DNA from: Geoglobus acetivorans | GTDB taxonomy: Archaea; Halobacteriota; Archaeoglobi; Archaeoglobales; Archaeoglobaceae | DNA: 64,000 bases | Reading direction: 5' to 3' | NCBI RefSeq assembly: GCF_039641995.1 | Contig: NZ_CP087714.1 | Coordinates: 1,116,001-1,180,000 of the forward strand | In this document: piece by piece, positions 613 to 61,785 of the stretch | Position numbering within the stretch: position 1 is the first letter of the stretch | Layout: each line of letters starts with the position of its first letter | Notes under the pieces: model-generated | Told to the model about the DNA's origin: nothing | Seen by the model: only the letters and a program-made list of their open reading frames with translations | Database searches by the model: none | Translations under genes and position numbers: made by a program

Positions 613-1740
613 ATGGGTGCAGTTAATGGCCTTAAGGATGTGGTTGCTGCTGAGTCGAGCATATCGCGGATTGCCATCGAGGACGGTAAGGCGGTACTGG
701 AATACCGAGGATACAACATTCATGATCTCGCAAGACATTCGACCTACGAAGAGGTGGCATATCTGCTGCTTTTCGGTGAACTTCCATCGAAGAGCGATCT
801 GGAATACTTCAGCGAGGATCTGAAGGAGAGGAGGGAGCTACCGCCCCAAATAGTTGGCCTGCTCACGAACCTCTCACCGTTCTGTCATCCCATGGTTGCT
901 CTGAGAACTGCGGTGAGTTTTCTGGGAACAATGGACAAACACATCTCATTTACAGGCCACGAAAAGAGCATTGAAAAGGCAAAAAACCTTATTGCCAAGT
1001 TTCCGACCATTGTCGCTTACTTCCACAGAATCAGGATGGGTGAAAAGCTGGTCCATCCCAGCGAAGACCTCGGACATGCGGCCAACTTTCTGTACATGCT
1101 CCATGGCGAAGAGCCTACAAAGACCATGGAAAAAGCCCTTGACCTGGATTTCATTCTTCATGCGGATCATGAACTGAACGCCTCTACCTTCGCGGCAAGG
1201 GTCGCAGCATCAACGCTCGCTGACATGTACGCCTGCGTTGTTGCCGCAACAGGAACCCTCATTGGGCCTCTGCATGGGGGTGCGGCTCAGAGGGTAATGG
1301 AAATGCTCAGAGAAGTGGCATTGCCAAAGAGGGCAGAGAGATATGTGCTTGAAAAGCTGGCAAAGGGAGAGAGAATCATGGGGTTTGGACACAGAGTGTA
1401 CAGAAATGTCATAGATCCAAGGACGGTTGAGCTGAAGAGGCTTGCAAGAATGCTTTCTAAGGAGAAGGGAACAAGATGGTTTGAGATCAGTGAGGCCATA
1501 GAAAAGGCAGTTTACCGGCATAAAGGGCTGTTACCCAACGTTGACTTTTACTCGGCCAGCGTGTATGCGAATCTTGGCATTCCGGATGACCTCTTCATAA
1601 ACATTTTTGCCATCGGAAGGGTTTCTGGCTGGACCGCACACATCATCGAACAGTATGAGAACAATGTTCTGATACGACCGAGAGCGGAATATATTGGGCC
1701 AGCGGGGAAAAAATTCCTCCCTCTGAGTGAGAGAGAATAA
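613..1740 (+). CDS. gltA: Citrate synthase
   Basis: 375-residue type II-like citrate synthase, which condenses oxaloacetate and acetyl-CoA. The three catalytic positions are visible: His of GPLHGGA near residue 221, His of GFGHRVYR near 260 and Asp of NVDFYSA near 311. The length matches archaeal citrate synthases; 2-methylcitrate synthase activity cannot be excluded from sequence. ATG at 613 is preferred because GAGGTGAT lies just before it (601-608). A TTG at 595 in frame would overlap the upstream gene and has no such site. Ends with TAA at 1738-1740. Confidence 0.93.
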   Translation: MGAVNGLKDVVAAESSISRIAIEDGKAVLEYRGYNIHDLARHSTYEEVAYLLLFGELPSKSDLEYFSEDLKERRELPPQIVGLLTNLSPFCHPMVALRTAVSFLGTMDKHISFTGHEKSIEKAKNLIAKFPTIVAYFHRIRMGEKLVHPSEDLGHAANFLYMLHGEEPTKTMEKALDLDFILHADHELNASTFAARVAASTLADMYACVVAATGTLIGPLHGGAAQRVMEMLREVALPKRAERYVLEKLAKGERIMGFGHRVYRNVIDPRTVELKRLARMLSKEKGTRWFEISEAIEKAVYRHKGLLPNVDFYSASVYANLGIPDDLFINIFAIGRVSGWTAHIIEQYENNVLIRPRAEYIGPAGKKFLPLSERE

Positions 1741-1784
1741 GTTTTTTATAATCTTTTTTCACCTCAGTTTCAGGAGGTGTTACT

Positions 1785-2939
1785 TTGTTTGAGTTAGCTG
1801 AGAGGCTAAGAAAATTACCGCCATATCTTTTTGCAGAGCTTGACGAAATGAAGGCGAAGAAGGAAAGTGAGGGAGTGAATGTCATAGACTTCGGAGTGGG
1901 TGATCCAGATCTTCCGACTCCCAAGCATGTTGTTGAAGCGATGAAAAAGGCTGTGGAGAAGGTTGAGAATCAGAAATACCCAAGCTATGCCGGGAAGTAT
2001 GAGTTTAGAGAAGCAGTTTCAAACTTCTACAGGCGGAGAAAGGGCGTGGAGGTGGAACCTGACAGTGTTATCGCTCTAATTGGGTCAAAGGAAGGTATTG
2101 CTCACCTTCCTCTGGCGTTCGTGGAAAGTGGAGACTATGTTATATATACCGAACCAGGGTATCCTGTTTATCACTCATCGGCCATCATGGCTGGAGGAAT
2201 ACCGTATGAACTGCCCTTGAAGGAAGAAAACGGATTTTTACCAGATCTGGATAGCATTCCTGATGAGGTCGCAAGAAAAGCGAAAATCATGTTTCTAAAC
2301 TATCCGAACAACCCCACAACCGCCGTTGCTGAAATGGATTTCATTAAGGAGGCCGTGGATTTCTGCATCGACAATAAAATCATTCTTGCCCACGATGCGG
2401 CCTACAGCGAAATAGGATTCGATTACAGACCCAGGAGTTTCCTTGAGTACGAGAATGCCTTCGAATGTGTGATTGAGTTTGGATCTCTCAGCAAAACCTA
2501 CAACATGACCGGTTGGAGGATAGCCTATGCTCTCGGAAACGAAGATGCTGTGAAGGGGTTGCTGAAGGTAAAGACCAACGTTGATAGCGGTGTTTTCAAT
2601 GCAGTCCAGGAAGCGGGTATGGCTGCACTGAATGGGAGCGATGATGTGATTGAAGAGAACAATGCCATTTACAGGGAAAGAAGGGACAGGCTTGTTGATG
2701 GGCTTAAAGAGCTTGGTTTCAAGGTTGAAAAACCAAAAGCAACGTTCTATGTCTGGCTCAGGGTGGACATGCCCAGCATGGAGTTTGCCAAGCAGCTTCT
2801 CGACAAGGCAGGCGTTCTTGTAACTCCTGGCGTTGGATTCGGGAAGAGCGGAGAAGGATATGTTAGATTTGCCCTGACAAGGGATGTTGCCGTGATTGAT
2901 GAAGCTCTGAGAAGAATGGAGGGAGTCGATATTGTTTAG
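1785..2939 (+). CDS. dapL: LL-diaminopimelate aminotransferase
   Basis: 384-residue class I/II aminotransferase. The N-terminal signature VIDFGVGDPDLPTP and the PLP-lysine motif SLSKTYNMTGWR (Lys237) match the DapL branch, which converts tetrahydrodipicolinate directly to LL-diaminopimelate in lysine synthesis. The assignment is strengthened by the next gene, lysA, which overlaps it by 8 nt and uses the downstream product. The start is TTG at 1785, placed by CAGGAGGTG at 1771-1779. Other aspartate-type aminotransferases share the fold, so substrate is inferred partly from context. Confidence 0.88.
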   Translation: MFELAERLRKLPPYLFAELDEMKAKKESEGVNVIDFGVGDPDLPTPKHVVEAMKKAVEKVENQKYPSYAGKYEFREAVSNFYRRRKGVEVEPDSVIALIGSKEGIAHLPLAFVESGDYVIYTEPGYPVYHSSAIMAGGIPYELPLKEENGFLPDLDSIPDEVARKAKIMFLNYPNNPTTAVAEMDFIKEAVDFCIDNKIILAHDAAYSEIGFDYRPRSFLEYENAFECVIEFGSLSKTYNMTGWRIAYALGNEDAVKGLLKVKTNVDSGVFNAVQEAGMAALNGSDDVIEENNAIYRERRDRLVDGLKELGFKVEKPKATFYVWLRVDMPSMEFAKQLLDKAGVLVTPGVGFGKSGEGYVRFALTRDVAVIDEALRRMEGVDIV

Positions 2940-4191
2940 CTCGAAAGATGGGAGACTTCTCATAGAAGAGGTTGATTTTGAAGAAATAGTGGAAAAAACC
3001 GGCACCCCTGTTTACATCACCTCAAGGAAAAAGCTTGAAGAAAATATCAGATTATTCCAGGAGAGCTTTGGATTTGCCAGAATGCTCTATGCAGTCAAGG
3101 CCAACAATAACCTGACCATCATGAAAATTTTTGCAAGAAATGGCTTTGGTGCCGATGTTTTCAGTCTGGGTGAGCTTTATCTCGCTCTTCTTGCTGGATT
3201 TGACCGAAATTTCATCCTGTTCAACGGAAACTCCAAAAGTGATGAGGAAATAGAGGCCGGTATTAAGGCTGGGGTGAAGTTCAGCGTTGATAGCCTTGAC
3301 GAGCTTTACACGATTTCCGAGATTGCCCAAAATTGCGGAAGAGAGGTAAAGATAGCGTTCAGGGTAAATCCGGATATAAGTGCAGAGACCCACCCCAAGA
3401 TCGCAACTGGTTTGAAAACATCTAAATTCGGGATTCCGGCTGAGCAGATTCTTGAGGCTTACGAGGCCGCAGTTCAGGCTGGTGCTGTGGTTCCGGTTGG
3501 AATTCACTGCCACATAGGAAGCCAGATTAGGGATGTAGAGCCTTTCGTGCATGAGCTTGAAAAGATGTTTGAAATTGCAGCAGAGCTTGAAAAACTTGGT
3601 GTGAGGCTTGAGTTTCTGGACATGGGCGGTGGATTTGGTATAGATTACGAAGGAGATGGTGAGTGCAGAGTGGAAAAATTCTCCCAGCCAATCAAAAAAA
3701 CGCTTGAGAATGGGCTCCAGATGTTGAAGTCCAAGCCGGAACTCTGGATTGAGCCGGGGAGAAGCCTTGTCGCCAATACGACAATTCTGCTTACCAGGGT
3801 AAATGCGGTGAAAAAAGCCTACAAAAACTTTGTCGCTGTGGATGCGGGCTTCAATCTGCTCATAAGACCGGCCATGTACGACTCATACCACAGGGTGGTG
3901 GTTGCGAACAAAATGGAGAAGCCAGCAGAAGAGCTGTATACAATTGCTGGCCCGATATGTGAGTCTGGCGACATTCTTGCAAAAGACAGAAAGCTTCCAA
4001 AAGTTAAGAGGGGTGATTACATTGCCGTTTTTGATGCGGGGGCATACGGGTTTGCAATGAGCAGCCAGTACAATGGCAGACCAAGATGCGCTGAGGTTCT
4101 TGTTGATGGGGGTCTGTTCCACATCACCCGGGAAAAGGAAACCGTTGGGGATCTCATTGCAAGACAGAGAATCCCAGAAGAACTCTTTTAA
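2932..4191 (+). CDS. lysA: Diaminopimelate decarboxylase
   Basis: 419-residue fold-III PLP enzyme making lysine from meso-diaminopimelate. Evidence: YAVKANNN with the PLP lysine (Lys56), HCHIGSQ, the glycine-rich phosphate-binding run DMGGGFGIDY, EPGRSLVA, and GPICESGD with the catalytic Cys. It starts at TTG 2932 inside the last codons of dapL, with GGAGGG at 2919-2924 as ribosome site. The pair looks co-transcribed. Diaminopimelate epimerase is not in the window. Confidence 0.92.
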   Translation: MFSSKDGRLLIEEVDFEEIVEKTGTPVYITSRKKLEENIRLFQESFGFARMLYAVKANNNLTIMKIFARNGFGADVFSLGELYLALLAGFDRNFILFNGNSKSDEEIEAGIKAGVKFSVDSLDELYTISEIAQNCGREVKIAFRVNPDISAETHPKIATGLKTSKFGIPAEQILEAYEAAVQAGAVVPVGIHCHIGSQIRDVEPFVHELEKMFEIAAELEKLGVRLEFLDMGGGFGIDYEGDGECRVEKFSQPIKKTLENGLQMLKSKPELWIEPGRSLVANTTILLTRVNAVKKAYKNFVAVDAGFNLLIRPAMYDSYHRVVVANKMEKPAEELYTIAGPICESGDILAKDRKLPKVKRGDYIAVFDAGAYGFAMSSQYNGRPRCAEVLVDGGLFHITREKETVGDLIARQRIPEELF

Positions 4192-4221: not shown

Positions 4222-6081
4222 TCAGATCCCGAGGGATCTTCTTTTGTCAAGAATGACCTGCTCTATCTTTTCAGCGGCTTTGACCGGGTCTTCTTCTACG
4301 AGAACTCTTCCTCCGGTCAGCTTCTGAACGTCCTCTGTAAACAGCCTTACGGCCTTATCGCTGCCCGTTATTGGTGGCACAGGTGATACATGTGTCACAA
4401 CACCGTACGCCACGGCGAAGACAGCATCTATTGTGGCCTTCTGCTCCATGTACTCTGGAGCGGTCGCTGCGATGGGGAGGTCGGGTATGTCCACTCCAAG
4501 CTTTTCAGCAAGGATTCTGAGCAGATACGCAAGTCTGCCGGTGTCCGTGCAGGTTCCGAAACTCAGAACGGGCGGGATGTTGAGCGCCTCACAAACCTTC
4601 TTCAGGTTCTCTCCTGCAAGGTCCTTCGCATCCACTGAGGTCAGACCAGCTACCTGGAGTGCTGCGTTTCCACAGCCGAGCGAGAGAACAAGGATGTCTC
4701 TCTTGATCAGTTCCTTTGCTATGGTTACCGTGCTGCTGTCGTGTGGGCCGTTCTTGAGCGTGGTGCAGCTCACCAGGCCGACCACTCCCTTTATGGATCC
4801 ATTTTTGATAGCCTCAAGCAGATTGTCCACACCAACAAGCTTGTCTATTGCCTCAGGCGAAAATCCGACGACAATTTTTTGCTTTTTACCAACTCTTACT
4901 GCTTTTGTCTTGTCCCTCTGCTTGAAGTTCTCTATTGCGATTTGTATAAGCTCTTTTGCTATATCTTCAACTTTTTCAGGCTCGTAGTCCAGACCCTCGT
5001 CTATTCCCTTGAATCTCACCAGTTTGCTGACGGGAACTATTTTTACGCCATACTTTTCGTATTCTGGCAGTGATGGAAGAGAGCAGTTCATGTCTGCAGC
5101 AAAAACGTCAACAGCTCCGGTGGCGAGAGCGTATTCCTGCACGATCCAGTTTCCTACAATTCCTGCAAAGACAGGGCTGTCAACTCTTTGAATTATTTCC
5201 TGTCCAGTTTCAATGAATCCCACCACTCTCAGTCCCTTTGCTCCAGCTTTCCTTGCCATTTCCTGTACTTCTTCTTTTTCTGCCAGCTTTATCAGCGCCA
5301 TGCCAACAAAAGGCTCATGACCGTTGACTGCTATGTTAACATACTCGGGGTCGAGAATTCCGAGGTCTGCATAGGTTTCGTGAGGCATTGGGGTTCCGAA
5401 CAGAATGTCCTGTATGGTTTCGAGAGCAATCTGGGCTGCAAGGCATGTAGATATGCCCAGAGACATGGATTTTTTCGCGAGTGAGACATAATTGCTGTCA
5501 ACGTTGGTCATGGAGGATGATCCAACCGTCAAAAGCTCCAGGAATACCCCGCTGGGCATCAATCCGAGCTCCTTCCACAGTTCCTTCCTTTTTTCTGGAG
5601 CAAGTATTTCGACGAGCTTGCTTGTTTCTGTGGAACTCAGGTCGGATATCACAAAATCTGCGACCTTGATTGCAAGCTCCTTTATGTCTTCTCCTTCAAT
5701 TCCGAGCAGCCCGGCAAACCATTTGAGTTTCTCAGGTTCCTTTATCTCAAATGGTGTTTTCCCCTCAGCAGTGGCTCTCAATGTTTTTGCGGCCTCAATT
5801 GCGTGATATGTGTATGCTTCCGTTCCGAGCATGTTCTTGTGAACAAAATTCCTCACGACCATTCCTGCTGCGTCGATACCGCAGGCACCGTAGGGATTGG
5901 TCTGGGTTATTCTGCAGGGACCCATGCTGCACAGCTGGCAGCTCAAACCCTTTTCACAGAATGGACATCTTGTTTTCTCCTGTGCGTTAAATCTGTCCAC
6001 AATGTTTGTTGTTTCGTTTTTCACTTTGTTGTACATTTCATTTATTGTCTCGTGGTAACTAACAGTTTCTTCCAGTTTCAT
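4222..6081 (-). CDS. cooS: CooS-family protein with altered C-cluster site
   Basis: 619-residue homologue of the monofunctional nickel CO dehydrogenase. Seen: CPFC (Cys39, Cys42; CxxC D-cluster form), B-cluster cysteines 48, 51, 56 and 67, and most C-cluster ligands (His255 in NGHEP, Cys333 in DMNC, Cys439, Cys470, Cys511) plus the conserved Lys548. The canonical GICCTGNE segment instead reads GFIETGQE at residues 288-295, so the Cys ligand is replaced by Glu291. The proton-channel segment begins Tyr-Thr-Tyr-His (residues 90-93) where canonical enzymes have His at the first position. Known: CODH homologues lacking this cysteine exist, and CooS-V of Carboxydothermus carries an Fe-S-O hybrid cluster without CO activity. 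Inference: this gene may not encode a CO dehydrogenase. No CooF or maturation genes adjoin it. ATG 6081 is chosen over GTG 6093 because a TATA-like box at 6104-6115 sits about 28 nt upstream. Confidence 0.85.
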   Translation of the reverse strand: MKLEETVSYHETINEMYNKVKNETTNIVDRFNAQEKTRCPFCEKGLSCQLCSMGPCRITQTNPYGACGIDAAGMVVRNFVHKNMLGTEAYTYHAIEAAKTLRATAEGKTPFEIKEPEKLKWFAGLLGIEGEDIKELAIKVADFVISDLSSTETSKLVEILAPEKRKELWKELGLMPSGVFLELLTVGSSSMTNVDSNYVSLAKKSMSLGISTCLAAQIALETIQDILFGTPMPHETYADLGILDPEYVNIAVNGHEPFVGMALIKLAEKEEVQEMARKAGAKGLRVVGFIETGQEIIQRVDSPVFAGIVGNWIVQEYALATGAVDVFAADMNCSLPSLPEYEKYGVKIVPVSKLVRFKGIDEGLDYEPEKVEDIAKELIQIAIENFKQRDKTKAVRVGKKQKIVVGFSPEAIDKLVGVDNLLEAIKNGSIKGVVGLVSCTTLKNGPHDSSTVTIAKELIKRDILVLSLGCGNAALQVAGLTSVDAKDLAGENLKKVCEALNIPPVLSFGTCTDTGRLAYLLRILAEKLGVDIPDLPIAATAPEYMEQKATIDAVFAVAYGVVTHVSPVPPITGSDKAVRLFTEDVQKLTGGRVLVEEDPVKAAEKIEQVILDKRRSLGI

Positions 6082-6164
6082 GATCAATTTCACAAGAATA
6101 CTTCATATATTTTTTGACCCTAAGATTTTTGGCAGAAAAGAAAAATATGTGGGGCTATAAAAAT

Positions 6165-7928
6165 TTAGGATTTTTTGCTTTTAAGCTCCGGGAAGTCCTC
6201 GTAGAAGTATTCGTGTTCTCCTCTCTCTCCTTTCTTCTTTTTCTCCTCTTCAAGTTTTCTGAGTTCAACCCTTCTTATCTTACCGCTGATTGTCTTTGGA
6301 AGTTCCGGCACAAATTCTATTATTCTCGGAATCTTGAACCTTGCGAGGATGTTTCTGCAGTGCTGGAACAGTTCAAGTGCAAGCTCTCTGGACGGCTCGT
6401 GTCCAGGCTTGAGAATGACGAACGCCTTCACGAGCTGATATCTGACAGGATCAGGGCTGCCGACAACTGCAGCTTCAGCCACAGCGGGATGCTCGATCAA
6501 TGCGCTCTCAACTTCGAATGGTCCAACTCTGTAATCTGACGTCTTTATGACATCATCTGCCCTACCGACGAACCACCAGTATCCATCCTCGTCGAAGTAT
6601 GCCTTGTCTCCGGTGTAGTAGTATTTGCCGACAAACACCTTTGCAGTCTTCTCCGGATCACCCATGTATTCCTTGAACAGGCCAATTGGCCTCCATCTGT
6701 CAACCCTCACGACAATGTGCCCAACCTCTCCTGGCTTTGTTATCTCATTGCCTTCATCATCCACGAGAGTTACATCATGCATGAATGAGGGCCTTCCGAA
6801 TGAGCCTGGCTTTATCTTGCCCTTGAACCAGGGCGGGTTGCCGATCATGGCTGTACTCTCCGTCTGACCGTAGAAATCTCTGATTTCTGTGTTGGTGTAC
6901 TTCAGCCACTGTTCGTATATTTCAGGGTTGAGCGGTTCTCCTGCACTGACAACGTCTCTCAGCTTGTAGTCGTACTTTCCGATGTCTGAGAGCAGGAACA
7001 GTCTCCAGGCTGTTGGCGGGGCACAGAATGTTGTAACACCGTTCTCGTCAAGTGCCTGTAGATACTGATCTCCGTTCAGCCTTCCGGAATAGTAGAATCC
7101 TGTTGCAGTGGCACCGACGATCAGGGGAGCGAAGAATGAACTCCATGCATATTTGGCCCATCCTGGCTGGCTGAGATTGTTGTGGACGTCTCCGGGCTGG
7201 ATGTTGATAAAGCACGCAGTGCTCAGGTGTCCCAGAGGGTACGATGTTGCCGTATGGACAACCCTCTTTGGCAATCCCGTGGTTCCTGATGTGAAGAAGC
7301 AGAATATAACATCGTCATACCTTGTTTTTGCGCTTTCAGCGGTTCCGCTCTCTTTTCTTACTTCGTCATAGCTTGTCCATCCGTCCTTCTGCCCCAGAAC
7401 GATCTTCACCTTGGGTTCGACACCGGCCAATTCAAGAGCCTCATCAATGACTTTCGCTGAGGCCTCATCTGCTATAACTGAGTCTGGTGGATAGGTTTTG
7501 AATCTGTATTCGAGCTCCCTTGCCGTCATGGTTGTTGCTGTTGGGACTCCAACAAATCCTCCCTTGACTGTTGCAAGGGTGCTGAACCAGATCTCTGGCA
7601 CGAGCGGAATCATCATGTAGAAGTTATCTCCCTTGTCTATCCCGTGGCCTCTCAGGAAATTGACTATTCTGTTTCCCTCCTCTGCAAGCTCTTTGTAGCT
7701 GAATTTCTTTTTCTCCCCTGTCTCAATGTCTGTCCAGAGAAGCGCAGTTTTGTCGCCGTTTTCCTTTACGTGTATTCCCTCGAAGATTTCTTCTGCCCAG
7801 TTGAAGTACTCGGGCAGCTGCATCGTGTTTAGGTTTTTGAAGAATTCTTCCATCGCCTTTGCCTTGTTCTCGTCGTCAGGCAACTGCACAAGTTCAATAA
7901 ACTTCCTGTAAACTTCCTCCATTGCCAT
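6165..7928 (-). CDS. AMP-forming acyl-CoA synthetase (acetyl/medium-chain type)
   Basis: 587-residue member of the ANL superfamily. It activates a carboxylic acid to acyl-CoA through an acyl-adenylate. Motifs: P-loop FTSGTTGLPK, YGQTE, the YTGDKAYFDEDGYWWFVGR adenylation motif, and the C-terminal PKTISGKIRR with the catalytic lysine. The overall pattern resembles the medium-chain/acetate-like (MACS) group; substrate is not predictable. ATG at 7928 is chosen because AAGGTGG precedes it; a GTG 9 nt earlier is within that site. It lies 84 nt downstream of cooS-like on the same strand but is separated by the cooS promoter. Confidence 0.85.
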   Translation of the reverse strand: MAMEEVYRKFIELVQLPDDENKAKAMEEFFKNLNTMQLPEYFNWAEEIFEGIHVKENGDKTALLWTDIETGEKKKFSYKELAEEGNRIVNFLRGHGIDKGDNFYMMIPLVPEIWFSTLATVKGGFVGVPTATTMTARELEYRFKTYPPDSVIADEASAKVIDEALELAGVEPKVKIVLGQKDGWTSYDEVRKESGTAESAKTRYDDVIFCFFTSGTTGLPKRVVHTATSYPLGHLSTACFINIQPGDVHNNLSQPGWAKYAWSSFFAPLIVGATATGFYYSGRLNGDQYLQALDENGVTTFCAPPTAWRLFLLSDIGKYDYKLRDVVSAGEPLNPEIYEQWLKYTNTEIRDFYGQTESTAMIGNPPWFKGKIKPGSFGRPSFMHDVTLVDDEGNEITKPGEVGHIVVRVDRWRPIGLFKEYMGDPEKTAKVFVGKYYYTGDKAYFDEDGYWWFVGRADDVIKTSDYRVGPFEVESALIEHPAVAEAAVVGSPDPVRYQLVKAFVILKPGHEPSRELALELFQHCRNILARFKIPRIIEFVPELPKTISGKIRRVELRKLEEEKKKKGERGEHEYFYEDFPELKSKKS

Positions 7929-7937
7929 AAGTTCCAC

Positions 7938-8272
7938 CTTCCGTAAATTTTAATCGCAATGTTTTTTGATGATACTTAAGCTTTTCGAATTTAATTAAAT
8001 AATAATTTAAATCAGATTAGCCGTTATAATTTTATCTTCTAAAAAATACTTTACGATAAATGGGACTCACTTATCCGATCCCTGGCTCTGACGGGCGAGC
8101 TCAGAAATGGTAAAATTCCTGTTTTTGTTACCTGTGTTTTCCGGGGTAATTTCTCTATTGGTCCATTTGGGATAACAGGGAGGTTGCAATCCCCATCATC
8201 ACGGGTGATTTCTGTAGGCAAAACCGGGAAAATCTATTTTATTTTAAAATTAAAAAAGGTTCGGGTGATGAC
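7938..8272. other. 335-nt divergent intergenic region
   Basis: Space between the divergent acyl-CoA synthetase and flavoprotein genes. The left part (7970-8060) is very AT-rich and should hold the synthetase promoter. The AT-rich stretch at 8234-8258 precedes GGTGATG and the ATG at 8273 and should hold the flavoprotein promoter. The middle (about 8062-8235) is not AT-rich and contains no good open frame, tRNA fold or convincing box C/D pair. Its role is unexplained. Confidence 0.5.
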
Positions 8273-9586
8273 ATGAAGGTCGTTATAGTGGGTGCAGGAG
8301 CTGGCGGGATGACTGCGGCCTCAAGAATACGTGCGCTAAAACCTGAATGGGATGTGAAAGTTTTTGAGGCGACAGGCTTTGCAAGTCACGCTCCCTGCGG
8401 GATACCGTATTCCATTGAGTATGGCTTTCCGGGCGACGAGCTGATGTATTACAGACCAGAAGTATTCATAAAGGAAAGAGGAATAGATCTGCGCCTCCAT
8501 GCGAAGGTCACTGAGGTAAAGGATGGCAGCATAGTTGTTGATGAAAACGGGGTAAAGAATGAGTACGAATGGGATAAACTGCTAATAGCCACGGGCGCCT
8601 CGCCAAAAGTTCCACCGATTGAAGGAGTTGACCTTGAAAACATCTACACCGTCGATCTTCCCCCAGATGCAGAAATTCTGAAGAGCGCTCTGGCAGAGGC
8701 TAAGAACGTTGTCATAGCAGGTGCAGGATATGTGGGCCTCGAGATGGCTGAAGCGGTATCCTCCCTTGGAAAAAAGGTTACTGTTGTGGAAATGGCGGAA
8801 CATCCCTTACCGAATTTTGACAGTGAGATTGGAGAAATTCTGAAGAAAGACATGGAGCAGAAGGTTGACCTGAGGCTTAATGAAAAAATAGAGGCCTTCG
8901 AAGGCAGGGACAGTGTTGAGAGAGTCATTACTGATAGGGGGGAGTACAGAGCAGACCTTGTCATCCTTGCTCTGGGTGTAAAGCCCAATGTTGAGCTTGC
9001 GGAGCAGATAGGGGTTGAGCTTGGGGAAACTGGTGCCATCCGGGTCAATCAGAAAATGGAGACAAGTGTTGAGAACGTTTACGCTGCAGGAGATGTTGCC
9101 GAGACGAGGCATCTCATCACGGGCAAACCAGCATGGATTCCTCTGGCACCGGCTGGAAACAAGATGGGGTATGTTGCGGGAGTCAACATGTCTGGTGGGA
9201 ACATAGAATTTCCTGGCGTTGTAGGCACCCAGATCACAAAATTCTATGACCTGCAGATTGCAAAGACAGGGTTGAGCGAGAAAGAGGCGATAAAAGAAGG
9301 TTTTGAGGTTAAGAGTGCGTTCATAACTGCCAATACCAAGGTCCACTATTACCCCGGGGCGAAGAAAACATATCTCAAGGTTGTTAAGGATGCGGAGACC
9401 AACAGGATTCTCGGTGCACAGATTGCAGGGTATGAGATGGTCGCAATGAGGGTCAATGTTTTTGCAGTGGCGATCCAGGCTGGATTAACAACGAAGGACG
9501 TATTCTTCTCTGATCTGGCTTACGCCCCGCCATTCACACCGATCTGGGATCCCGTGATTGTGGCTGCAAGGGTGCTGAAGTTTTAG
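8273..9586 (+). CDS. CoA-disulfide reductase / NADH oxidase-like flavoprotein
   Basis: 437-residue FAD-dependent pyridine-nucleotide:disulfide oxidoreductase. The N-terminal FAD motif VGAGAGGMTAA, the single active-site cysteine in SHAPCGIPY (Cys42), the NAD(P) motif AGAGYVGLEMAE (near residue 145) and the FAD motif NVYAAGDVAE (near 265) are in the usual order. A single non-flavin cysteine is typical of CoA-disulfide reductases, NADH oxidases and polysulfide reductases, which cannot be separated by sequence alone. GGGTGATG just before ATG 8273 supports the start. It is transcribed away from the acyl-CoA synthetase. Confidence 0.85.
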   Translation: MKVVIVGAGAGGMTAASRIRALKPEWDVKVFEATGFASHAPCGIPYSIEYGFPGDELMYYRPEVFIKERGIDLRLHAKVTEVKDGSIVVDENGVKNEYEWDKLLIATGASPKVPPIEGVDLENIYTVDLPPDAEILKSALAEAKNVVIAGAGYVGLEMAEAVSSLGKKVTVVEMAEHPLPNFDSEIGEILKKDMEQKVDLRLNEKIEAFEGRDSVERVITDRGEYRADLVILALGVKPNVELAEQIGVELGETGAIRVNQKMETSVENVYAAGDVAETRHLITGKPAWIPLAPAGNKMGYVAGVNMSGGNIEFPGVVGTQITKFYDLQIAKTGLSEKEAIKEGFEVKSAFITANTKVHYYPGAKKTYLKVVKDAETNRILGAQIAGYEMVAMRVNVFAVAIQAGLTTKDVFFSDLAYAPPFTPIWDPVIVAARVLKF

Positions 9587-9622: not shown

Positions 9623-10234
9623 ATGAAGTCTGAGCTTGAAAGTCTCATAGATGAAATCAAATCCTGCAGAAAGTGCACTCTCCATCTGACAAAGAAAAAT
9701 TACGTCCCCGGAGAGGGAAATGAGAATGCACAGATAATGTTCATCGGCGAGGCACCTGGCAGGGAGGAGGACGAGCAGGGCAGGCCTTTTGTGGGAAATG
9801 CTGGCAAGCTTCTCACTGCTCTAATAGAACGAAAGCTGGGTCTTGCCAGGAAAGATGTTTACATTGCAAACATTCTGAAATGCAGACCACCCAACAACAG
9901 GGACCCCATGGAGCATGAGGTGGATGCGTGTTTTCCGTATCTCCTGAGGCAGATTGAAATAATTAAGCCTGATGTCATAGTCTGTCTCGGCAGACACTCT
10001 GCAAAAACCATTTTCGAGCATTTTGAGATACCCTTCAGGAATATTTCCAGAGACAGGGGGAAGGTGCACGTTAAGAATACAGATTTTGGGAAGATCAGCT
10101 TTGTGGCTACATATCATCCAGCGGCGGCGCTTTACAAACCGGCTTACAGGGAAATAATTGAGAGTGATTTTGAGAAGATAAGCGGTCTGATAAAAAGAAA
10201 AAATTTGACTCTTTCAGACTTCATATCTGATTAG
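9623..10234 (+). CDS. udg: Family 4 uracil-DNA glycosylase
   Basis: 203-residue iron-sulfur uracil-DNA glycosylase that removes uracil from DNA. Cluster cysteines are Cys15 and Cys18 (CRKC), Cys87 and Cys103. The uracil-site motif IGEAPGREEDEQGRPFVG (residues 41-58) and the later THP-like YHPAA motif match the archaeal type IV family, which suits a hyperthermophile with heat-driven cytosine deamination. ATG 9623 has a TATA-like CTTTTTTA about 25 nt upstream and no ribosome site, suggesting a leaderless mRNA. Its stop overlaps the convergent CARF gene by 4 bp (TTAG). Confidence 0.93.
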   Translation: MKSELESLIDEIKSCRKCTLHLTKKNYVPGEGNENAQIMFIGEAPGREEDEQGRPFVGNAGKLLTALIERKLGLARKDVYIANILKCRPPNNRDPMEHEVDACFPYLLRQIEIIKPDVIVCLGRHSAKTIFEHFEIPFRNISRDRGKVHVKNTDFGKISFVATYHPAAALYKPAYREIIESDFEKISGLIKRKNLTLSDFISD

Positions 10235-10911
10235 AATATTGTGCAGATTGCTTCACCGAGAGGTGTCAGCAGTATCTTTACGTTTTTACCCTCTCTTTTT
10301 GTTTCTATGTATCCATCTTTTTCAAGTCCTTTCAGATGGTAGCTCATTTTTGCTCTCTGAGCCATATACGCTTTATCCTTTTCGAGCTTTCCATCGACGA
10401 GTTTTATCAGCGTGTTTATTGAGTCAACTTCTTTTCCATTTTCGTATATTGCTTTCAGGATTGTTATTTTGTCCTGTCCGATCCTCTTGAGCGGAGGAAC
10501 AGGTATTTCTACAATTTTTTCGATTCCAGCTTCTTTGTCCTTTTCATACTTCGGCATTCCCACGTAAAGCCTGCCACCTGTCAGCTGGGCAACCAGGTAG
10601 AGCGAGATCATCAGCGTCCTTGGAGAATCTGTGGCGTTTATCAGGAGGTTATTGCCTTCAGCTATTTCTGGTTTTATCTGGTCCAGTATTTTTATGGCAG
10701 AATCATATACATCGGTCTCACTAACTCTGATTTTTTCGATCTCGACGAGAACGCTCAGCATTTTTTCAAGGTCTTCAGCGACTTCCATGTAACCCTCGCC
10801 GTCCGGAATTATCAGGTAGGCCTTCTGTATGGGGTACCCGCTCAGTTTCAAGCTTTCCATGATTCTCTCTTTGTTCCTTCCAACCGCAATAACATGGACT
10901 GCTTTTGCCAT
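10231..10911 (-). CDS. CARF-domain winged-helix regulator (DUF6293-like)
   Basis: 226-residue protein with a Rossmann-like sensor domain (residues 1-150; AVGRN near the start and LINATDSPRTL in the middle fit the CARF pattern) and a C-terminal winged helix (about 160-226: MSYHLKGLEKDGYIETKREG). CARF-HTH proteins such as Csa3 sense cyclic oligoadenylate and control CRISPR genes, but no cas gene or CRISPR array is in this window, so this one is an orphan; related HFX_2341/DUF6293 regulators also occur outside CRISPR loci. ATG 10911 is preferred over 10920 by the distance (about 26 nt) from TTTATTAAG near 10937. Confidence 0.7.
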   Translation of the reverse strand: MAKAVHVIAVGRNKERIMESLKLSGYPIQKAYLIIPDGEGYMEVAEDLEKMLSVLVEIEKIRVSETDVYDSAIKILDQIKPEIAEGNNLLINATDSPRTLMISLYLVAQLTGGRLYVGMPKYEKDKEAGIEKIVEIPVPPLKRIGQDKITILKAIYENGKEVDSINTLIKLVDGKLEKDKAYMAQRAKMSYHLKGLEKDGYIETKREGKNVKILLTPLGEAICTIF

Positions 10912-11097
10912 GCGTTCCATTTTGTGGAAAACTTAATAAATTTTTCTATAGGTGATGGCGTGTTGTTATTTGTCAAAGATGTGGTGAATAGTTAAACGCT
11001 GTAACAATCTAATTAAAAAGCCTGAATCGGTACCTGACAAATGCTATACGGTGGAAGAATTGAGGGTCGAGAGGGGTTATCACAATCATGAAAAGGA

Positions 11098-51983: not shown

Positions 51984-52174
51984 AGGCTTTGGCATCTCCT
52001 GCCTTCCTTCTTTGCAGCTTCGATCCATAACTCAATGGCAGTCTTGATCTCCCTCAAAGCCTCCTCCTCAGTCTCGCCAAAGGCAGAGCAGCCCGGCAGC
52101 TCGGGAACTACAGCGATGTAACCCTCATCCTCCTCGCTGTAGAATATCCCAATCGTATATTCGTGCGTGCTCAT
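51980..52174 (-). CDS. HicB-like antitoxin, probably truncated by frameshift
   Basis: 64 residues with the HicB fold signature: YTIGIFYSEEDEGYIAVVPELPGCSAFGETEEEALREIKTAIE. HicB proteins neutralise the HicA RNase; no hicA is seen. The last residues (GRRCQSL) depart from the family, which commonly continues EEGR-x-(I/M)P-x-P; that continuation is present in another frame. It overlaps the upstream DUF2283 gene by 4 nt. Confidence 0.72.
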   Translation of the reverse strand: MSTHEYTIGIFYSEEDEGYIAVVPELPGCSAFGETEEEALREIKTAIELWIEAAKKEGRRCQSL

Positions 52175-52407
52175 ACCTTCACTTTGAACCTGCTCGCATT
52201 GAGGATGGTTATGCCCACGAGCTTATCATCTCTGAATCTCAGCAGAATACCTTCATCAGTAACTTCAGTATCTGTGGCTTTCTGAAGTCTTTCAAAACTG
52301 ATATACAGAACATCGGCTTCTCTATCATAATCCACATGGAATCTTCCTGTAGGAAATTCCAGAAGCACTGGTATTGCGTCAACAATCTTTTTCACTTCTT
52401 CTGCCAT
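52171..52407 (-). CDS. DUF2283 family protein
   Basis: 78 residues: FHVDYDREADVLYISFERL, then DDKLVGITILNASRF, the signature of DUF2283, small proteins often paired with toxin-antitoxin-type partners. Overlap with the HicB-like gene (ATGA) suggests a two-gene unit. Function unknown. Confidence 0.78.
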   Translation of the reverse strand: MAEEVKKIVDAIPVLLEFPTGRFHVDYDREADVLYISFERLQKATDTEVTDEGILLRFRDDKLVGITILNASRFKVKV

Positions 52408-52459
52408 ACTGCACCTCTCCTCATCAATTTATCCACTTTCTTAGTTATGAAAGCCGTAA

Positions 52460-52582
52460 TTATATGTACATCGCTTTTCGCGATGGCACGCCGTGCTTCG
52501 CACGAGCGAAACCATCGTTCTCAAGTTCCCTGTAATCTGTAACCAGATACTTGCCGTTTTGGATAACTGCTATTCCTATCAT
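52460..52582 (-). CDS. Possible 40-residue ORF after EVE gene
   Basis: [20 protein letters not shown] onward; ATG overlaps the EVE stop (ATGA). The 3' half runs through a GC-rich inverted-repeat area (about 52470-52515), so it may be a remnant rather than a gene. No family recognised. Confidence 0.35.
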
Positions 52583-53022
52583 TTTGCCACACTCACGATT
52601 AGCTCGTAATCCTCCCCTGGAATCTCCCTCATCGCCTTGCCCATCAGGTGCCCGCTCCACTTTTTCTTGTTGGTGATGAACCTCAGCTTTGGAATCAGGG
52701 GTTTGAATTCAACAGGCTTATCGAAGATTTTTACCGGTTTGAGCTTGATTCTCAGAGGGAAAGTTTCATTTCCCATGCCTTTTGGAGACTTGAAAATCCT
52801 GTTCGAATCTTTGAAAACTTCGGAAACAGCTTCATAAACAGCTACAATTCTCGGTTCTTTGATTTCGTCTTTATTTTTCTCCTGTTTCAGGTAGATGAGC
52901 AGCTTATCTCCCGGTTTTACCTTGGCTATGGTGTTTTTGTGCCTCTCAGGAACGCCCCAGATGTTTTTCTGCCTGATAACTTTCCAGTTATCTTCGTTGG
53001 TTATGCAGAGCCAGCAGGTCAT
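52579..53022 (-). CDS. EVE-domain protein
   Basis: 147 residues of the EVE/PUA-like fold ([48 protein letters not shown]). EVE domains bind modified bases in DNA or RNA and are frequent in restriction and toxin-antitoxin loci. It lies in the accessory island, upstream of HicB/DUF2283. GGTGATAAC precedes ATG 53022. Confidence 0.8.
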
Positions 53023-53049
53023 GTTATCACCATCATATTATTTTCGAGA

Positions 53050-53232
53050 TTAATAGATAAACCTTGCCTGAGATTCATTCAGGAGTTTCTCCATTCTTTC
53101 AACAAACTCAAATGCTATGCTGAGAGCAGATTTTGCTTCTTCCCTGGTTGCGAAGTAAGATACATCGTACTGATCTACATGCCTCGTTTCCCTCAGTCTG
53201 TCAAACAGATCAATCCACTCCCTTTCAAGTAA
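53050..53232 (-). pseudogene. C-terminal fragment of a HEPN-domain protein
   Basis: Open frame of 60 residues without start: WIDLFDRLRETRHVDQYDV, then ATREEAKSALSIAFEFVERM and a tail ending at TAA. It matches the last two helices of UPF0332-type HEPN proteins. It directly abuts a DUF1156 fragment in another frame. The missing N-terminal half resembles the broken HEPN gene at 55.3-55.5 kb. Confidence 0.6.
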
Positions 53233-53327
53233 TGGAGTTCAAAGGTAGGAGCCCTTCCGGACTTCCCCTTTATTGCCTCCTCGCTAATCTCCTCTACCGG
53301 GATGAATTCTTCAATCAGCAGTCTCAT
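53193..53327 (-). pseudogene. N-terminal fragment of a DUF1156 methyltransferase
   Basis: ATG 53327 starts MRLLIEEFIPVEEISEEAIK, then GKSGRAPTFELHY, which corresponds to the conserved beginning of DUF1156 DNA methyltransferases (RLIE..P...IS..A......LH.WWARRP). Homology stops at about residue 33 (53229), where HEPN-coding sequence begins, and the frame ends at 53193. About 900 residues are missing. The remnant implies an earlier defence cassette here. Confidence 0.6.
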
Positions 53328-53335
53328 CGGATCAC

Positions 53336-53653
53336 CTATCTCAGATTTTCAACATCTGAGATGAATGTAATGCCCTCATTCCTGCAGGCTTCTTCGTAAT
53401 CAGTATCGAGACTCGCCAGTGCATCCAGTTCGTAGTGCTTGCAGGCTGCCAAAATTAGAGCATCATTTGGGAGCAACCCGTATTTTTGGACGAAATCATT
53501 TGAAATGCTCACGACCTCTCTATTGATCTCCAAAAAGTTCAAAGCTTTAAAGCTGGGTATATCAGCTCTACAAACTTCTTTCCAGCAGGCTGCTTGCCTT
53601 CTTGTTTCCTTCAAAATGCTCTATGAAGATGTTACTGTCCAAAAATACCTTCA
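53336..53653 (-). pseudogene. vapC: VapC-type PIN toxin, frameshifted and shortened
   Basis: ATG 53653 begins [16 protein letters not shown], a PIN N-terminus with the first Asp, but hits TAG after 28 residues. A second frame continues as ALNFLEINREVV and LPNDALILAACKHYELDALASLDTDY with later PIN acidic residues to 53336. The total span (about 105 codons) is shorter than a usual 130-residue PIN, so there is both a frameshift and a small deletion. Presumed inactive RNase. Confidence 0.72.
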
Positions 53654-53832
53654 TATATTTCAGCCTCAAGCTCATGCCAAGATTTTTCTGTTTTGAGCAC
53701 ACCTTTGGTTTTTTTCAGAGTTTCAAGTCTTTTTATCGTATCTTCTACCTTCCTTCTCAGAATTTTCTCGATTTCTTTTTCAGAGCCTTCAAGCTCCCTT
53801 GGTATCCTCGCCTTAATTGTTATCTCACCCAT
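53632..53832 (-). CDS. vapB: VapB-type antitoxin
   Basis: 66 residues: short beta-strand start ([11 protein letters not shown]), a long charged helix, and C-terminal [16 protein letters not shown] that would embrace the toxin. It overlaps the PIN pseudogene start by 22 nt in classic VapBC order. With the toxin broken it should be under no selection, yet it is intact. Confidence 0.7.
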
Positions 53833-53953
53833 TTCCAGCGCCTGTTTAACATAAGCTTTTAACCTTAAAAATTATTTGACTTAAAATCTGAATCGAAGCA
53901 AATTTTCATCTTCCTAAGGCTGAGTGAATACAGGTGGAATTATAAACAAAGCA

Positions 53954-54114
53954 CTCCTGCAAGAGATCTACAGCGAAATATGGAAGATACGGGAAAAAAC
54001 TCAAAGAGCTTATGATATCCGTGGAAAAAAGTTTCTGAGGAAGAACTTCAGGAAATCAGGAAGCTGAAAAAAAGAATCACTGAAAGGAGTATAATATTAA
54101 TTGAGAGTAGATAA
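53954..54114 (+). pseudogene. Broken antitoxin-like reading frame
   Basis: Plus-strand coding-like text in two frames: LLQEIYSEIWKIREKTQRAY then, after an A-run at 54025-54030, VSEEELQEIRKLKKRI to TAA at 54112. The charged helical pattern resembles small antitoxins. No start codon in the first frame. The surrounding 53833-54160 holds no other gene. Confidence 0.4.
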
Positions 54115-54160
54115 AGTAAGCAAATATTAAAAGCTTAAGAATTCCTTAAAATTTAAAAAT

Positions 54161-55189
54161 TTAAGATAAAAGTATATTGTATATTGAGTTCAGACTATCT
54201 ACAACCTTTTTTAGCTCCTGCCCACCAATTAATTTTATTCCATTTGCTCTGGCAAGCTCAATTGCGGGTTTAGTGTAATTGCTGGTTGTAATGATCATCC
54301 CTTTATCGGTACCATAATATTTTATTGCAGCAACAATCTCCTGAACTGCCTTGTTACCGACTTTTCTTTTTTCACTATATCTTTTCACTTGAACAGCTAT
54401 TTTCAAACCGCCTTTGGAAATTATTAAATCAGCTCCCTGATCTCCTGTATGTTTTGTTTTTTCAACGTCAAATCCCAAACTCGCAAATATGCTTCCAATC
54501 AGCGTTTCGAAGTCGTGCCCACTCATTTTGGTTAGTTCTACCCAACATATTGGCAGAGCATTTTTTGACGCATCATTCTCGCTTATTTTGTTCATTGAAT
54601 TGGACTCAAGCTCGCTCTCATACCTTTGTAATCGCATGTTTTCAATAATTTCTACAATCTTGGCATATATCTGTCTTTCTTCCAATTGGATATTGTATTC
54701 CTGTAGAACTCTTGTGAGATACTTCAGACTTTCTCCAATAATCTCTTTCAAATACTGTGCATTTATTTGTGTATCAACATCAGAAATGGCAAAATCAATC
54801 TCATCTGCAATATTTTCATCATATTGGAGAAATAACCTAATTATTTCGTTTTCATCTCTCGGATTTTTGAGTTTTATCCACTCCTTGAATTTTTCATATC
54901 CTATCTTTTCCAATTCCTGCACTAAGTATTCTTCAAGATCTTCACCAGAAAGTTTGTATCCGTATCTGTTGTTGAGAATGTAGCTCACTTTTTCGATGTC
55001 ATCATAGTCTATGTAATCATCTAATATATCGAAAGTTGGAAATTGCCGATATTTGTTTACCCATTTTTCAGCCTCTTTTATCAAGTTAGATATGTATTTG
55101 TATGCTCTATCGTCTTTTAGCAATTTCTGGATTTCATCACTACCTTTTTCAGAGTTGTCATCTCCCCAAAAAAACAATTTAAACCCCAT
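54161..55189 (-). CDS. Mrr-type restriction endonuclease-like protein
   Basis: 342 residues. C-terminal third is an Mrr_cat PD-(D/E)xK nuclease: HDFETLIGSIFASLGFDVEKT, GDQGADLIISKGGLKIAVQVKRY with catalytic D and QxK, and GMIITTSNYTKPAIELA. The N-terminal 220 residues are helical and charged, with no recognised domain; they may sense or bind DNA. AT-rich unlike the 0-51 kb genes, a sign of recent transfer. Type IV-like restriction of modified DNA is the inferred role. Confidence 0.82.
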   Translation of the reverse strand: MGFKLFFWGDDNSEKGSDEIQKLLKDDRAYKYISNLIKEAEKWVNKYRQFPTFDILDDYIDYDDIEKVSYILNNRYGYKLSGEDLEEYLVQELEKIGYEKFKEWIKLKNPRDENEIIRLFLQYDENIADEIDFAISDVDTQINAQYLKEIIGESLKYLTRVLQEYNIQLEERQIYAKIVEIIENMRLQRYESELESNSMNKISENDASKNALPICWVELTKMSGHDFETLIGSIFASLGFDVEKTKHTGDQGADLIISKGGLKIAVQVKRYSEKRKVGNKAVQEIVAAIKYYGTDKGMIITTSNYTKPAIELARANGIKLIGGQELKKVVDSLNSIYNILLS

Positions 55190-55271
55190 AGGAAGTCTAT
55201 AAAATATTCTATTTTTAAAATTTTATTTGGTTTGTTTTTAACAGAACTTAAAATTCATAGAAATCGGCCAG

Positions 55272-55523
55272 TTATGTGCGATGTTTACTATACCAACCCA
55301 TAAAGCACTCTAAAATCATAAGCCCCATTCTTCGTGGATGAGAGTTTCCATGCCCAGAAAAGACTTCTTCAGGTGGAAGATTTAGAACGGTATCCACCAA
55401 TTTGCATCTCTGCTCAGCTCTCTTCATGCTCTGTCTGGCCTTATCGGCAGATGGAGTTACTCTCCTCAACAATCTTTTTCTCACACAATCCTCAAAGTCC
55501 AACTCCTTCACCCCATATAACAA
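55272..55523 (-). pseudogene. HEPN-domain toxin partner, N-terminal half only
   Basis: Starts ATG 55523, overlapping the nucleotidyltransferase end by 16 nt. [20 protein letters not shown] and [11 protein letters not shown] are the first helix of UPF0332-like HEPN proteins. After about residue 55 the text no longer follows the family, while another frame gives [14 protein letters not shown], so a frameshift and truncation are likely. No RX4-6H motif remains. Confidence 0.6.
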
Positions 55524-56038
55524 AGGGAATTCACAAGCTCACAGTAAAAGATTGGATCATTCTCTTTAATTCTGGCAATTTTTTCAGGAGTCAGTATGAG
55601 TAAATGAACGGGTTTTCCAATCTCTTTCGCAAGGTCTTTTTCAACCCTTGCAATCTCCTTCTCTCCCGGATGCTTCTCCACTCGAATCCAGATATCAATG
55701 TCGCTATCCTCCCTGTTTGTTCCCTTTGAATAACTTCCGTAAACTCCAAGGCTTACCATCCATTCTCTTCGGTGTTTGACAAGTGATGTTTGCAGTTTTG
55801 TTATGTTGAGCATAATTTTGATCGCCCTTACTTCAGGAGCTTCATGAAGAACCACGTATTTCCTCTTCTGCCTTTTCAGGACTCCTTCCATTTCAAGCAA
55901 CCTGAGAAACTGTGAAACAAAACCCTTGCTTCTTTTCAGAGACGTTGCAACCTCCTCAACCCCAACCACTTCTCTTTCCAGAATGAATTCTAGGGTTTCC
56001 ACCCTCTCTTTGCTGGAGAGAATTTTCCATATGTTCAT
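55508..56038 (-). CDS. HTH-nucleotidyltransferase (MNT antitoxin type)
   Basis: 176 residues. N-terminal winged helix ([36 protein letters not shown]) then a minimal nucleotidyltransferase domain with [16 protein letters not shown] (GSX10DXD) at about residues 98-113. MNT proteins neutralise HEPN toxins, in MntA by AMPylation. The added HTH suits autoregulation through the palindromes over its start. ATG 56038 lies inside the first palindrome. Confidence 0.83.
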
Positions 56039-56071
56039 GATATGTGAACTTGTAGTTCATGGTTTGTGAAC
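56033..56071 (-). promoter_or_regulatory. Tandem palindromic operator over the MNT start
   Basis: Two copies of GTTCA-N7-TGAAC, at 56033-56049 and 56055-56071, 22 bp apart (two helical turns). Between them TGAAC-TTGTA-GTTCA makes a third palindrome. A TATA-like ATATTTTA (56075-56082, read on the minus strand) lies just upstream, so the sites cover the expected transcription start and the ATG. Autorepression by the HTH of the encoded protein is inferred. Confidence 0.65.
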
Positions 56072-56085
56072 TGAATATTTTATCC

Positions 56086-56478
56086 GGATTTCATGCAGGG
56101 AGTTGTCTGGAGAAAAACAACTTCAAAAAAATGCCCTCATGGAGCCTCAAAAAATTAGAGAAGTTCTGATTATGTCTGACTACAACCGGGAATAGATGTG
56201 TTGGCCTGAAGACGTCATTCAAACGCTCTAAGAAAATGAAAGGATAACAGAATGAGGGTTTATAAATCAGGAGCACAGGCATTTCGGCTTCCCTGTAAGT
56301 GAAAAAGCTCGCGATATTGGGGTTGTTGGAGTCAGCAAGCCAGCAGGGCGGAAAAAGATCGAGAGAGATACAGTGAAATCAATTGAATGCCTTTAAAGCT
56401 CCAGGGGAGAAGATGTAATTGATGCATTCATGATGTGGGGAAGCAAAGAATTTTAACTTTCATCACAATCAAAACAAC
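56086..56478. other. Intergenic region with coding debris
   Basis: About 390 nt between the divergent MNT genes. No intact gene. Short plus-strand stretches look like broken coding sequence (for example VGVSKPAGRKKIERDTVKS at about 56323-56380). GAATTTTAACT at 56448-56458 is a TATA-like box for the plus-strand MNT gene at 56479. Confidence 0.4.
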
Positions 56479-56851
56479 ATGGAACTGAATCGAATACTCC
56501 CGGAAATCATTGAGACCATTAAAACTCATCCCGATGTAATCGCAATCTACCTATTCGGTTCTCAGGCAAAGGGGGATCAGACCCCACTATCAGATGTTGA
56601 CATTGCAGTAAATCCTCGAAAATCCAACTCCAGAAAGTGAAGCAGACATAGGCAGCATGGCAACTCAGGAAATTGACATCGTCCTGTTTCACCGCCTGCC
56701 GTTACACATCAAATTCGAGGTCTTCAGACACGGGAGAGAGCTTTTTGTCAGGGACGAGGAGAAGCTCGCAGAAATAAGATTCAGGGTTATGAGGGAATAT
56801 CTCGACACACTGCCCATGTACAGGCGAATATCCTCAGAGGTGCTTGGATGA
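56479..56851 (+). pseudogene. mntA: MntA-type nucleotidyltransferase antitoxin, single frameshift
   Basis: ATG 56479 opens with MELNRILPEIIETIKTHPDV and FGSQAKGDQTPLSDVDIAV, containing the GSX10DXD catalytic motif, then stops early. Dropping one A from the run at 56610-56612 restores AVILENPTPESEADIGS and joins the rest (QEIDIVLFHRLPLHIKFEV...) to TGA 56849-56851, giving about 123 residues. The end overlaps hepT as ATGA. Either a real mutation, a sequencing error or recoding. Confidence 0.75.
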
Positions 56852-57243
56852 GGCTTGCAGAATACATACTGCGTTTTGAGAGACACCTCAAAGGTGCGGT
56901 AAACCTCAAGTCAAAGGACGTGAAGGATTACTTCATTTACAACACTCTAGCGATGGAATGCTTTCAGGCCGCAAACACCCTTATGGATTTAGCACAGTAC
57001 ATAGTTGCAAAGAAGAAACTGGGATTTCCCTCAACCTACAGAGAGCTTTTCGAAATTCTTGAAAAGGAAGGATACATAAGCGAGGATGAACTAAGAACCT
57101 TCAAACGGCTGATATTTCTTCGAAACCTCATAGCTCACGAGTACTACAGGATTTCAGAAAGCGAACTGCTCGAGATGGTGAATCTGCTTGAGAAATGTTC
57201 TGGCTTTGTCAGTAGAATAAAGACAGAGGCCAGCTGGGAGTGA
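56848..57243 (+). CDS. hepT: HepT-type HEPN toxin
   Basis: 131 residues, all helical, DUF86/HepT family. The RNase motif RNLIAHEY (Arg92, His97, Tyr99) fits RX4HXY exactly; the Tyr is the residue AMPylated by MntA in characterised pairs. It appears intact, whereas its antitoxin gene has a frameshift. Confidence 0.87.
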   Translation: MRLAEYILRFERHLKGAVNLKSKDVKDYFIYNTLAMECFQAANTLMDLAQYIVAKKKLGFPSTYRELFEILEKEGYISEDELRTFKRLIFLRNLIAHEYYRISESELLEMVNLLEKCSGFVSRIKTEASWE

Positions 57244-57324
57244 ATGCATTTGGAATTCACGTATGTTTTGCTGTCATCAGCCACCGGGTTACTGAGAACC
57301 ACTTCGATGCAGTCTTCACTGACC

Positions 57325-57561
57325 TTATTGAAACCATGTCCCGCATTCCAGCTTTTCAGATTTCTTTTCTGTCTGACTTGAAAAAACAGTCGAGCTCATT
57401 AAATCGGAATCGCCGTATCCACAGAATATCGGAATAAACTCTCTCAAACTGAGCTTTATTCCCCCAATTTCAGCCTTGTCGAGGAGTTCTTCCACTTTGT
57501 CTGCACCTTTTTCAGTCACTAAGGTGTGTAAAACTGCAAAGGCATCGAGAATATAATTCAT
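57325..57561 (-). pseudogene. vapC: VapC-type PIN toxin, truncated
   Basis: Starts MNYILDAFAVLHTLVTEKGADK, a PIN beginning with the first Asp, and follows the family for about 50 residues (VEELLDKAEIGGIKLSL). After that the text (SDLMSSTVFSSQTEKK) lacks the remaining PIN acidic motifs and stops at 78 residues. ATG overlaps the upstream antitoxin stop by 4 nt. Likely inactive. Confidence 0.65.
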
Positions 57562-57833
57562 CTTTCCATCTCCCTTTTCTTCTCCTCTTCTTTGTATTCG
57601 GCAAGTATCTCGTCAGGCCTTCTCCTGAACTTCACGAGACCTCTTCCTCTTGTTTCCGGAACGGGCACGATAACTATTTCACCTCCGAAGTCCAGTATCT
57701 CAACCTCTTTTCCAGCCTCAATATTGTACTTTTTTCTGATTTTAGCTGGAAGCACCACCTGCCCTTTTGTGGATATTTTTATAGGCAAACCATCACCCTC
57801 CTGAATTACGTCAACCTTAGCAATTCTATTCAT
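57558..57833 (-). CDS. vapB: AbrB-type antitoxin (VapB)
   Basis: 91 residues. SpoVT/AbrB swapped-hairpin domain IKISTKGQVVLPAKIRKKYNIEAGKEVEIL followed by a charged C-terminal tail to hold the toxin. ATG 57833 is preferred; a longer frame to ATG 57923 exists with a weaker fit. Paired with the truncated PIN gene downstream. Confidence 0.75.
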   Translation of the reverse strand: MNRIAKVDVIQEGDGLPIKISTKGQVVLPAKIRKKYNIEAGKEVEILDFGGEIVIVPVPETRGRGLVKFRRRPDEILAEYKEEEKKREMER

Positions 57834-57952
57834 GTTGCTGCACAGTTCATTTTCGAGTTTAAGCTTGATTGCTCTAGTTTTTGAATAGATAATAATTTTG
57901 TTACCTTCATAGCGCCTAGCCATGTTGGAGCGTGGGGATTTTTGACAGAGTG

Positions 57953-61772: not shown

Positions 61773-61785
61773 CTTTGACACCCAG

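Follow-up and report, generated by a model that had tools for sequence, protein, structure and literature searches.

We asked what a CooS-family gene of Geoglobus acetivorans encodes, given that a glutamate stands where CODH-II, a true nickel carbon monoxide dehydrogenase (Ni-CODH), has Cys295, the Fe1 ligand of its C-cluster. In the window, by which we mean the whole 64,000-nucleotide stretch analysed, the gene forms an intact frame that yields 623 residues from a GTG at 6093 or 619 residues from an ATG at 6081 (Table 1). A first-pass annotation had read residues 288-295 as GFIETGQE with the exchange at Glu291, a numbering that is right for the ATG; counted from the GTG, the glutamate is residue 295, which coincides with its number in CooS-V.

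Table 1. Features of the window gene and its product (positions in the window).
Feature	Position	Strand	Basis or remark
CooS-V-type (clade D, structural group D-1) CODH-like hybrid-cluster protein (assignment very probable)	4222..6093	(-)	frame, profile, alignment, tree
GFIETGQE motif; Glu (GAA, 5209-5211) at the Fe1 ligand Cys295 position of CODH-II	5197..5220	(-)	
C43 and C46 (CX2C type III D-cluster); C52, C55, C60 and C71 (B-cluster)	5881..5967	(-)	counted from GTG 6093
Tyr94 (Tyr90 from the ATG) at the acid-base/proton-channel His position	5812..5814	(-)	
Glu550, equivalent to CooS-V Glu556	4444..4446	(-)	alignment; Fe3-ligand role from PMC9311411

Loss of the Ni-CODH ligand set in a selected gene

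The statement that the other C-cluster ligands and the B- and D-cluster cysteines remain was confirmed by alignment, with two refinements. The cysteine just ahead of the glutamate position (the '..CC..' of CODHs) is also gone, being replaced by isoleucine, and the D-cluster motif is of the CX2C type III, [2Fe-2S] type. His259, Cys337, Cys443, Cys474 and Cys515 (GTG numbering) are present, so that five of six C-cluster ligands are kept, along with the catalytic lysine; the full set of an active Ni-CODH, five cysteines and one histidine, is incomplete in the alignment through the glutamate at Cys295. The GAA codon is three changes away from a cysteine codon, and no single sequencing error therefore explains the motif. 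Compared with its nearest congener, the gene is 98% identical and carries the same motif (dN 0.010, dS 0.364, dN/dS about 0.03), and it is under purifying selection.

Placement in the CooS-V subclade

The protein scored 871 bits against the NCBIfam model for the anaerobic CODH catalytic subunit (cut-off 478) and only 42 bits against the hybrid-cluster protein (HCP) model TIGR01703, below the cut-off of 360.8. Its best solved match was CooS-V of Carboxydothermus hydrogenoformans (CooS-V Ch; 7b7q, E 9.8e-208, 695 bits), and the next was a true CODH at 434 bits. In an alignment of 98 distinct family proteins and four solved references, it matched CooS-V at Cys41, Ile294-Glu295, Asn337, Glu556 and all other ligands, with a tyrosine at CooS-V position 91 (the acid-base histidine) and the lysine kept at position 558. 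Cys41 also occurs in the Desulfovibrio reference CODH, and Asn337 and Glu556 were rejected as CooS-V-specific markers because Cys295 proteins of clade C/D type share them (L078_2, L107-L110). The tyrosine that the first-pass annotation had taken to fit a non-CODH function is indeed present, but it is not diagnostic, as it is found likewise in clade C and D groups with a complete cysteine set (PMC6344411; L078_2).

At the Cys295 position, every other row at least 53% identical to the window protein has glutamate, and rows below 45% identity have cysteine. An alignment with CODH-II and CooS-V and a CooS tree had been proposed as checks; in a maximum-likelihood tree from a quick search, the window protein grouped with CooS-V, apart from the Cys295 CODHs and inside an Archaeoglobi group, and all 88 other distinct close relatives, archaeal and bacterial, carried glutamate. 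The exchange mapped to one branch with support 100 and glutamate in 90 of 90 rows on one side, in a tree whose sequences were chosen for their similarity to the window protein, which holds only one Cys-type clade-D-like row and in which long branches meet near the Glu/Cys split. Resequencing to CC at this position had been named as a refutation; the motif recurs in the 98%-identical congener, and every close relative fetched has the glutamate. At the level of sequence, these results establish that the protein belongs to CooS-V and has lost the CODH ligand set.

Two loci in this sample stand out. An Alkanophagales CooS-V-type protein (L016, 7001-8866) combines Glu295 with Gly41 and a type II D-cluster motif resembling CX7C, and departs from the coupling of Cys41 with Glu295 described in the literature. 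In Methanosarcinales METP1 (L078), a Glu295 CooS-V-type gene at 7001-8866 on the plus strand has, at a distance of about 3.7 kb, a Cys295 clade-D-like CooS of 44% identity (1461-3329, minus strand), in which Asn337 and Glu556 are already present.

Distribution and surroundings in Archaeoglobales

Among 57 Archaeoglobales genomes, 23 had a long close-type match and three more had fragments; others had more distant, Cys-type CooS proteins, 35-38% identical to the window protein. The CooS of genome G001 at 1.658 Mb is presumably A. fulgidus AF1849. The window genome encodes one full CdhA, no other CooS and no HCP. No HCP above the family cut-off was found in the 57 genomes, with or without CooS-V, or in 20 other genomes that have a CooS-V-type gene and whose completeness was not established.

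The window gene is flanked by lysA on one side and by an acyl-CoA ligase gene on the other, with an aminotransferase gene and a CoA-disulfide-reductase-like gene also in the neighbourhood. The first-pass annotation had pointed to the lack of adjoining CooF and CooC genes, which are typical of Ni-CODH loci without being strictly required. This is true of the window copy, but in Archaeoglobales the genes around cooS are not kept at all: we found no conserved cooS neighbourhood in the order, and the nearest congener shares the lysA side only. None of 16 window genes tested adjoins cooS in relatives outside the sister species, except a radical-SAM homologue, which lies near cooS in two Hydrothermarchaeota-group loci and is non-adjacent in the window. 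The pairing of CooF with NoxA in A. fulgidus made the acyl-CoA ligase gene and the CoA-disulfide-reductase/NOX-like gene (8273-9586) candidate partners; both were rejected, since neither stands beside cooS in any relative. A family of proteins of about 129 residues is encoded just upstream of cooS in eight Archaeoglobi/Alkanophagales loci (L003, L004, L005, L006, L007, L013, L014, L016); Pfam gives no clear match for it (PilN at 0.0019, short of the PilN cut-off), and in the window genome it sits away from cooS (G000:C1:145295-145663).

Elsewhere in the window, G+C drops from about 0.47 to 0.39 over 52000-64000, a region that is likely a defence island and that holds genes for an Mrr-type nuclease (54161-55189), an HTH-nucleotidyltransferase (55508-56038), the type I restriction protein HsdR (58626-61781) and a GmrSD-N/HEC-05-like protein (61786-63543). 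A gene at 10231-10920 (minus strand) encodes a CARF/HTH protein that resembles Csa3 and HFX_2341 (DUF6293) and scores below the Csa3 cut-off.

Recurring neighbours across the family

A 2026 eLife survey placed the A. fulgidus CooS in clade D, described as a clade without a clear gene neighbourhood pattern (PMC13056359). In our survey of 80 family loci, one ferredoxin family occurred near the CooS-V-type gene in 17, always within 2.5 kb and never in the 2.5-7 kb bins, though those bins span more sequence. These ferredoxins have 240-280 residues, two [4Fe-4S] sites and a conserved C-terminal region, and their loci belong to Nitrospirota, Armatimonadota and WS1, Bacillota, Desulfobacterales, Methanoperedens and Thermoplasmata; the ferredoxin gene is upstream of cooS in L032, L034, L043, L054, L057, L030 and L077, and nearby in L051, L060-L062 and others. 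Regulators of the CRP/FNR family lie within 1.25 kb of the gene in eight bacterial loci, with none farther out in the 80 loci. In ANME-2 and related loci, the gene is accompanied by those for a rubrerythrin-like protein, an FTR-like protein and a flavodiiron protein whose best named match is the anaerobic NO reductase flavorubredoxin, with a score under the cut-off of that model, and in Thermoplasmata loci by one for a divergent HTH-V4R regulator; the sets in ANME-2 and in Thermoplasmata are each shared by descent and not independent. In a separate sample of 158 genomes of the phylum, 12 had both the same ferredoxin family and a genuine HCP, and in three of these (G095, G097, G114) the two genes were 1-1.4 kb apart; the ferredoxin family was not found in the window genome at E 1e-30.

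The recurring neighbours, namely the ferredoxin, the CRP/FNR regulators and the flavodiiron/rubrerythrin/FTR set, are modestly new. They suggest a redox or nitrosative stress role for the CooS-V family, and we infer that the CooS-V-type protein is a ferredoxin-fed reductase acting under such stress.

A probable nickel-free hybrid-cluster reductase

The crystal structure of CooS-V Ch revealed a [4Fe-3S-nO] hybrid cluster devoid of Ni, with Glu556 as a ligand of Fe3, and the enzyme neither oxidised CO nor reduced CO2, and no reduction of NO was detected (Jeoung et al., 2022; PMC9311411). The Cys295-to-Glu exchange was recognised there as a shared derived character of the CooS-V subclade, correlated with Gly41 to Cys (PMC9311411), and the same features had earlier served to define structural group D-1 (Inoue et al., 2019; PMC6344411). 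The first-pass reading of the window protein as a CooS-V-type protein with a hybrid cluster, and not a Ni-CODH, is well supported by the 7b7q match and the ligand set and is very probably correct, although it amounts to established knowledge. Its view of the gene as a special case, to be likened to CooS-V, did not hold up: CooS-V has the identical exchange, a published subclade character (PMC9311411, PMC6344411) that extends to archaeal AF1849.

We therefore regard the window gene as, in all likelihood, an ordinary archaeal representative of the CooS-V family (clade D, group D-1), whose product would contain a Ni-free hybrid cluster, would not oxidise CO and would serve as a stress-linked reductase. 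By analogy with the solved homologue, the homodimer would be built on the CODH scaffold, its subunits bridged by a [2Fe-2S] D-cluster and two [4Fe-4S] B-clusters being present; because glutamate replaces the Fe1-binding cysteine, the Ni-Fe C-cluster would give way to a [4Fe-3S-nO] hybrid cluster that is free of nickel, low in potential and redox-morphing, and CO oxidation should be lacking. The family-wide neighbours, together with the homologue, point to a physiological reductase in which electrons would enter from a ferredoxin via the D- and then the B-clusters, and the hybrid cluster, once reduced, would become accessible to a small oxidant and pass electrons on to it, the likeliest purpose being protection against oxidative or nitrosative stress.

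The very slow hydroxylamine turnover of CooS-V Ch (PMC9311411), the regulator genes adjoining family members and the regulatory role suggested for clade D (PMC13056359) would also accord with a redox or gas sensor, whose morphing cluster signals instead of turning over substrate. We consider a sensor unlikely: the window protein has no output domain, the conserved electron-transfer clusters and the recurring adjacent ferredoxin fit an oxidoreductase, and the substrate channel of CooS-V Ch is open only in the reduced state (PMC9311411). The first-pass annotation had instead proposed hydroxylamine as substrate, and hydroxylamine does oxidise the cluster in CooS-V Ch crystals in two steps; nevertheless, a physiological hydroxylamine reductase is very improbable, as CooS-V Ch has a kcat of 0.13 per s and a kcat/KM of 20 per M per s, the latter about 20-fold below that of a true CODH and two orders below those of HCPs (PMC9311411).

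Very improbable too is a functional Ni-CODH that tolerates glutamate as Fe1 ligand and continues to oxidise CO. The entire CODH scaffold, the five other C-cluster ligands and the catalytic lysine are retained, and the NCBIfam name is that of a CODH catalytic subunit, but CooS-V Ch shares these residues and has neither CO activity nor Ni, the C295A and C295E variants of CODH-II are Ni-deficient and CO-inactive (PMC9311411), and CO does not induce the A. fulgidus orthologue AF1849 (PMC4543118). A sequencing error or a decaying pseudogene, for which we found no evidence, is practically out of the question given the codon, the intact frame and the dN/dS, and is refuted by the glutamate in all close relatives.

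A tentative and rather doubtful extension of the reductase reading is that in Archaeoglobales, and perhaps in other HCP-less lineages, the CooS-V-type protein is the only hybrid-cluster oxidoreductase and stands in for HCP in nitrosative/oxidative defence, using elsewhere the ferredoxin family that it shares with HCP. HCP is missing also from Archaeoglobales without CooS-V, so that a replacement of HCP by CooS-V is not demonstrated. With the annotation corrected, which would otherwise suggest CO metabolism, the window gene and the A. fulgidus cooS should not count as evidence of carboxydotrophy, and the family-wide neighbours (ferredoxin, CRP/FNR, flavodiiron) offer concrete leads on the job of CooS-V enzymes.

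Comparison with known systems

AF1849 of A. fulgidus is an orthologue of the window protein with 81% identity and carries IIGFIETGQEIL, although its flanking genes differ; the archaeal glutamate state was therefore previously on record, both in databases and, effectively, in published work. True Ni-CODHs (CODH-IV, the Thermococcus and Desulfovibrio CooS proteins and CODH-II) have the same scaffold, with CC where the window protein has Ile-Glu. HCP (TIGR01703) belongs with it to the prismane/CODH superfamily and has a glutamate cluster ligand and an Fe-S-O hybrid cluster, of the kind predicted for the window protein, but is a separate family, as the 42-bit score indicates. A comparison for the CRP/FNR regulators and ferredoxins of our family loci is offered by the HcpR regulon of sulfate reducers, which unites a CRP/FNR regulator, HCP and the ferredoxin FrdX (PMC5701242). 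With structural group D-1, the window protein shares glutamate for the first C-cluster cysteine, the type III D-cluster, tyrosine for the acid-base histidine and the retained lysine (PMC6344411), and we found no differences from the features of that group. Closest of the solved proteins is CooS-V Ch (7b7q, 7b7t, 7b95, 7b97, 7b9a), with full-length homology and identical Glu295, Cys41, Asn337 and Glu556; around the glutamate it reads G-S-I-E-S where the window protein, which is archaeal and known here from sequence, reads G-F-I-E-T.
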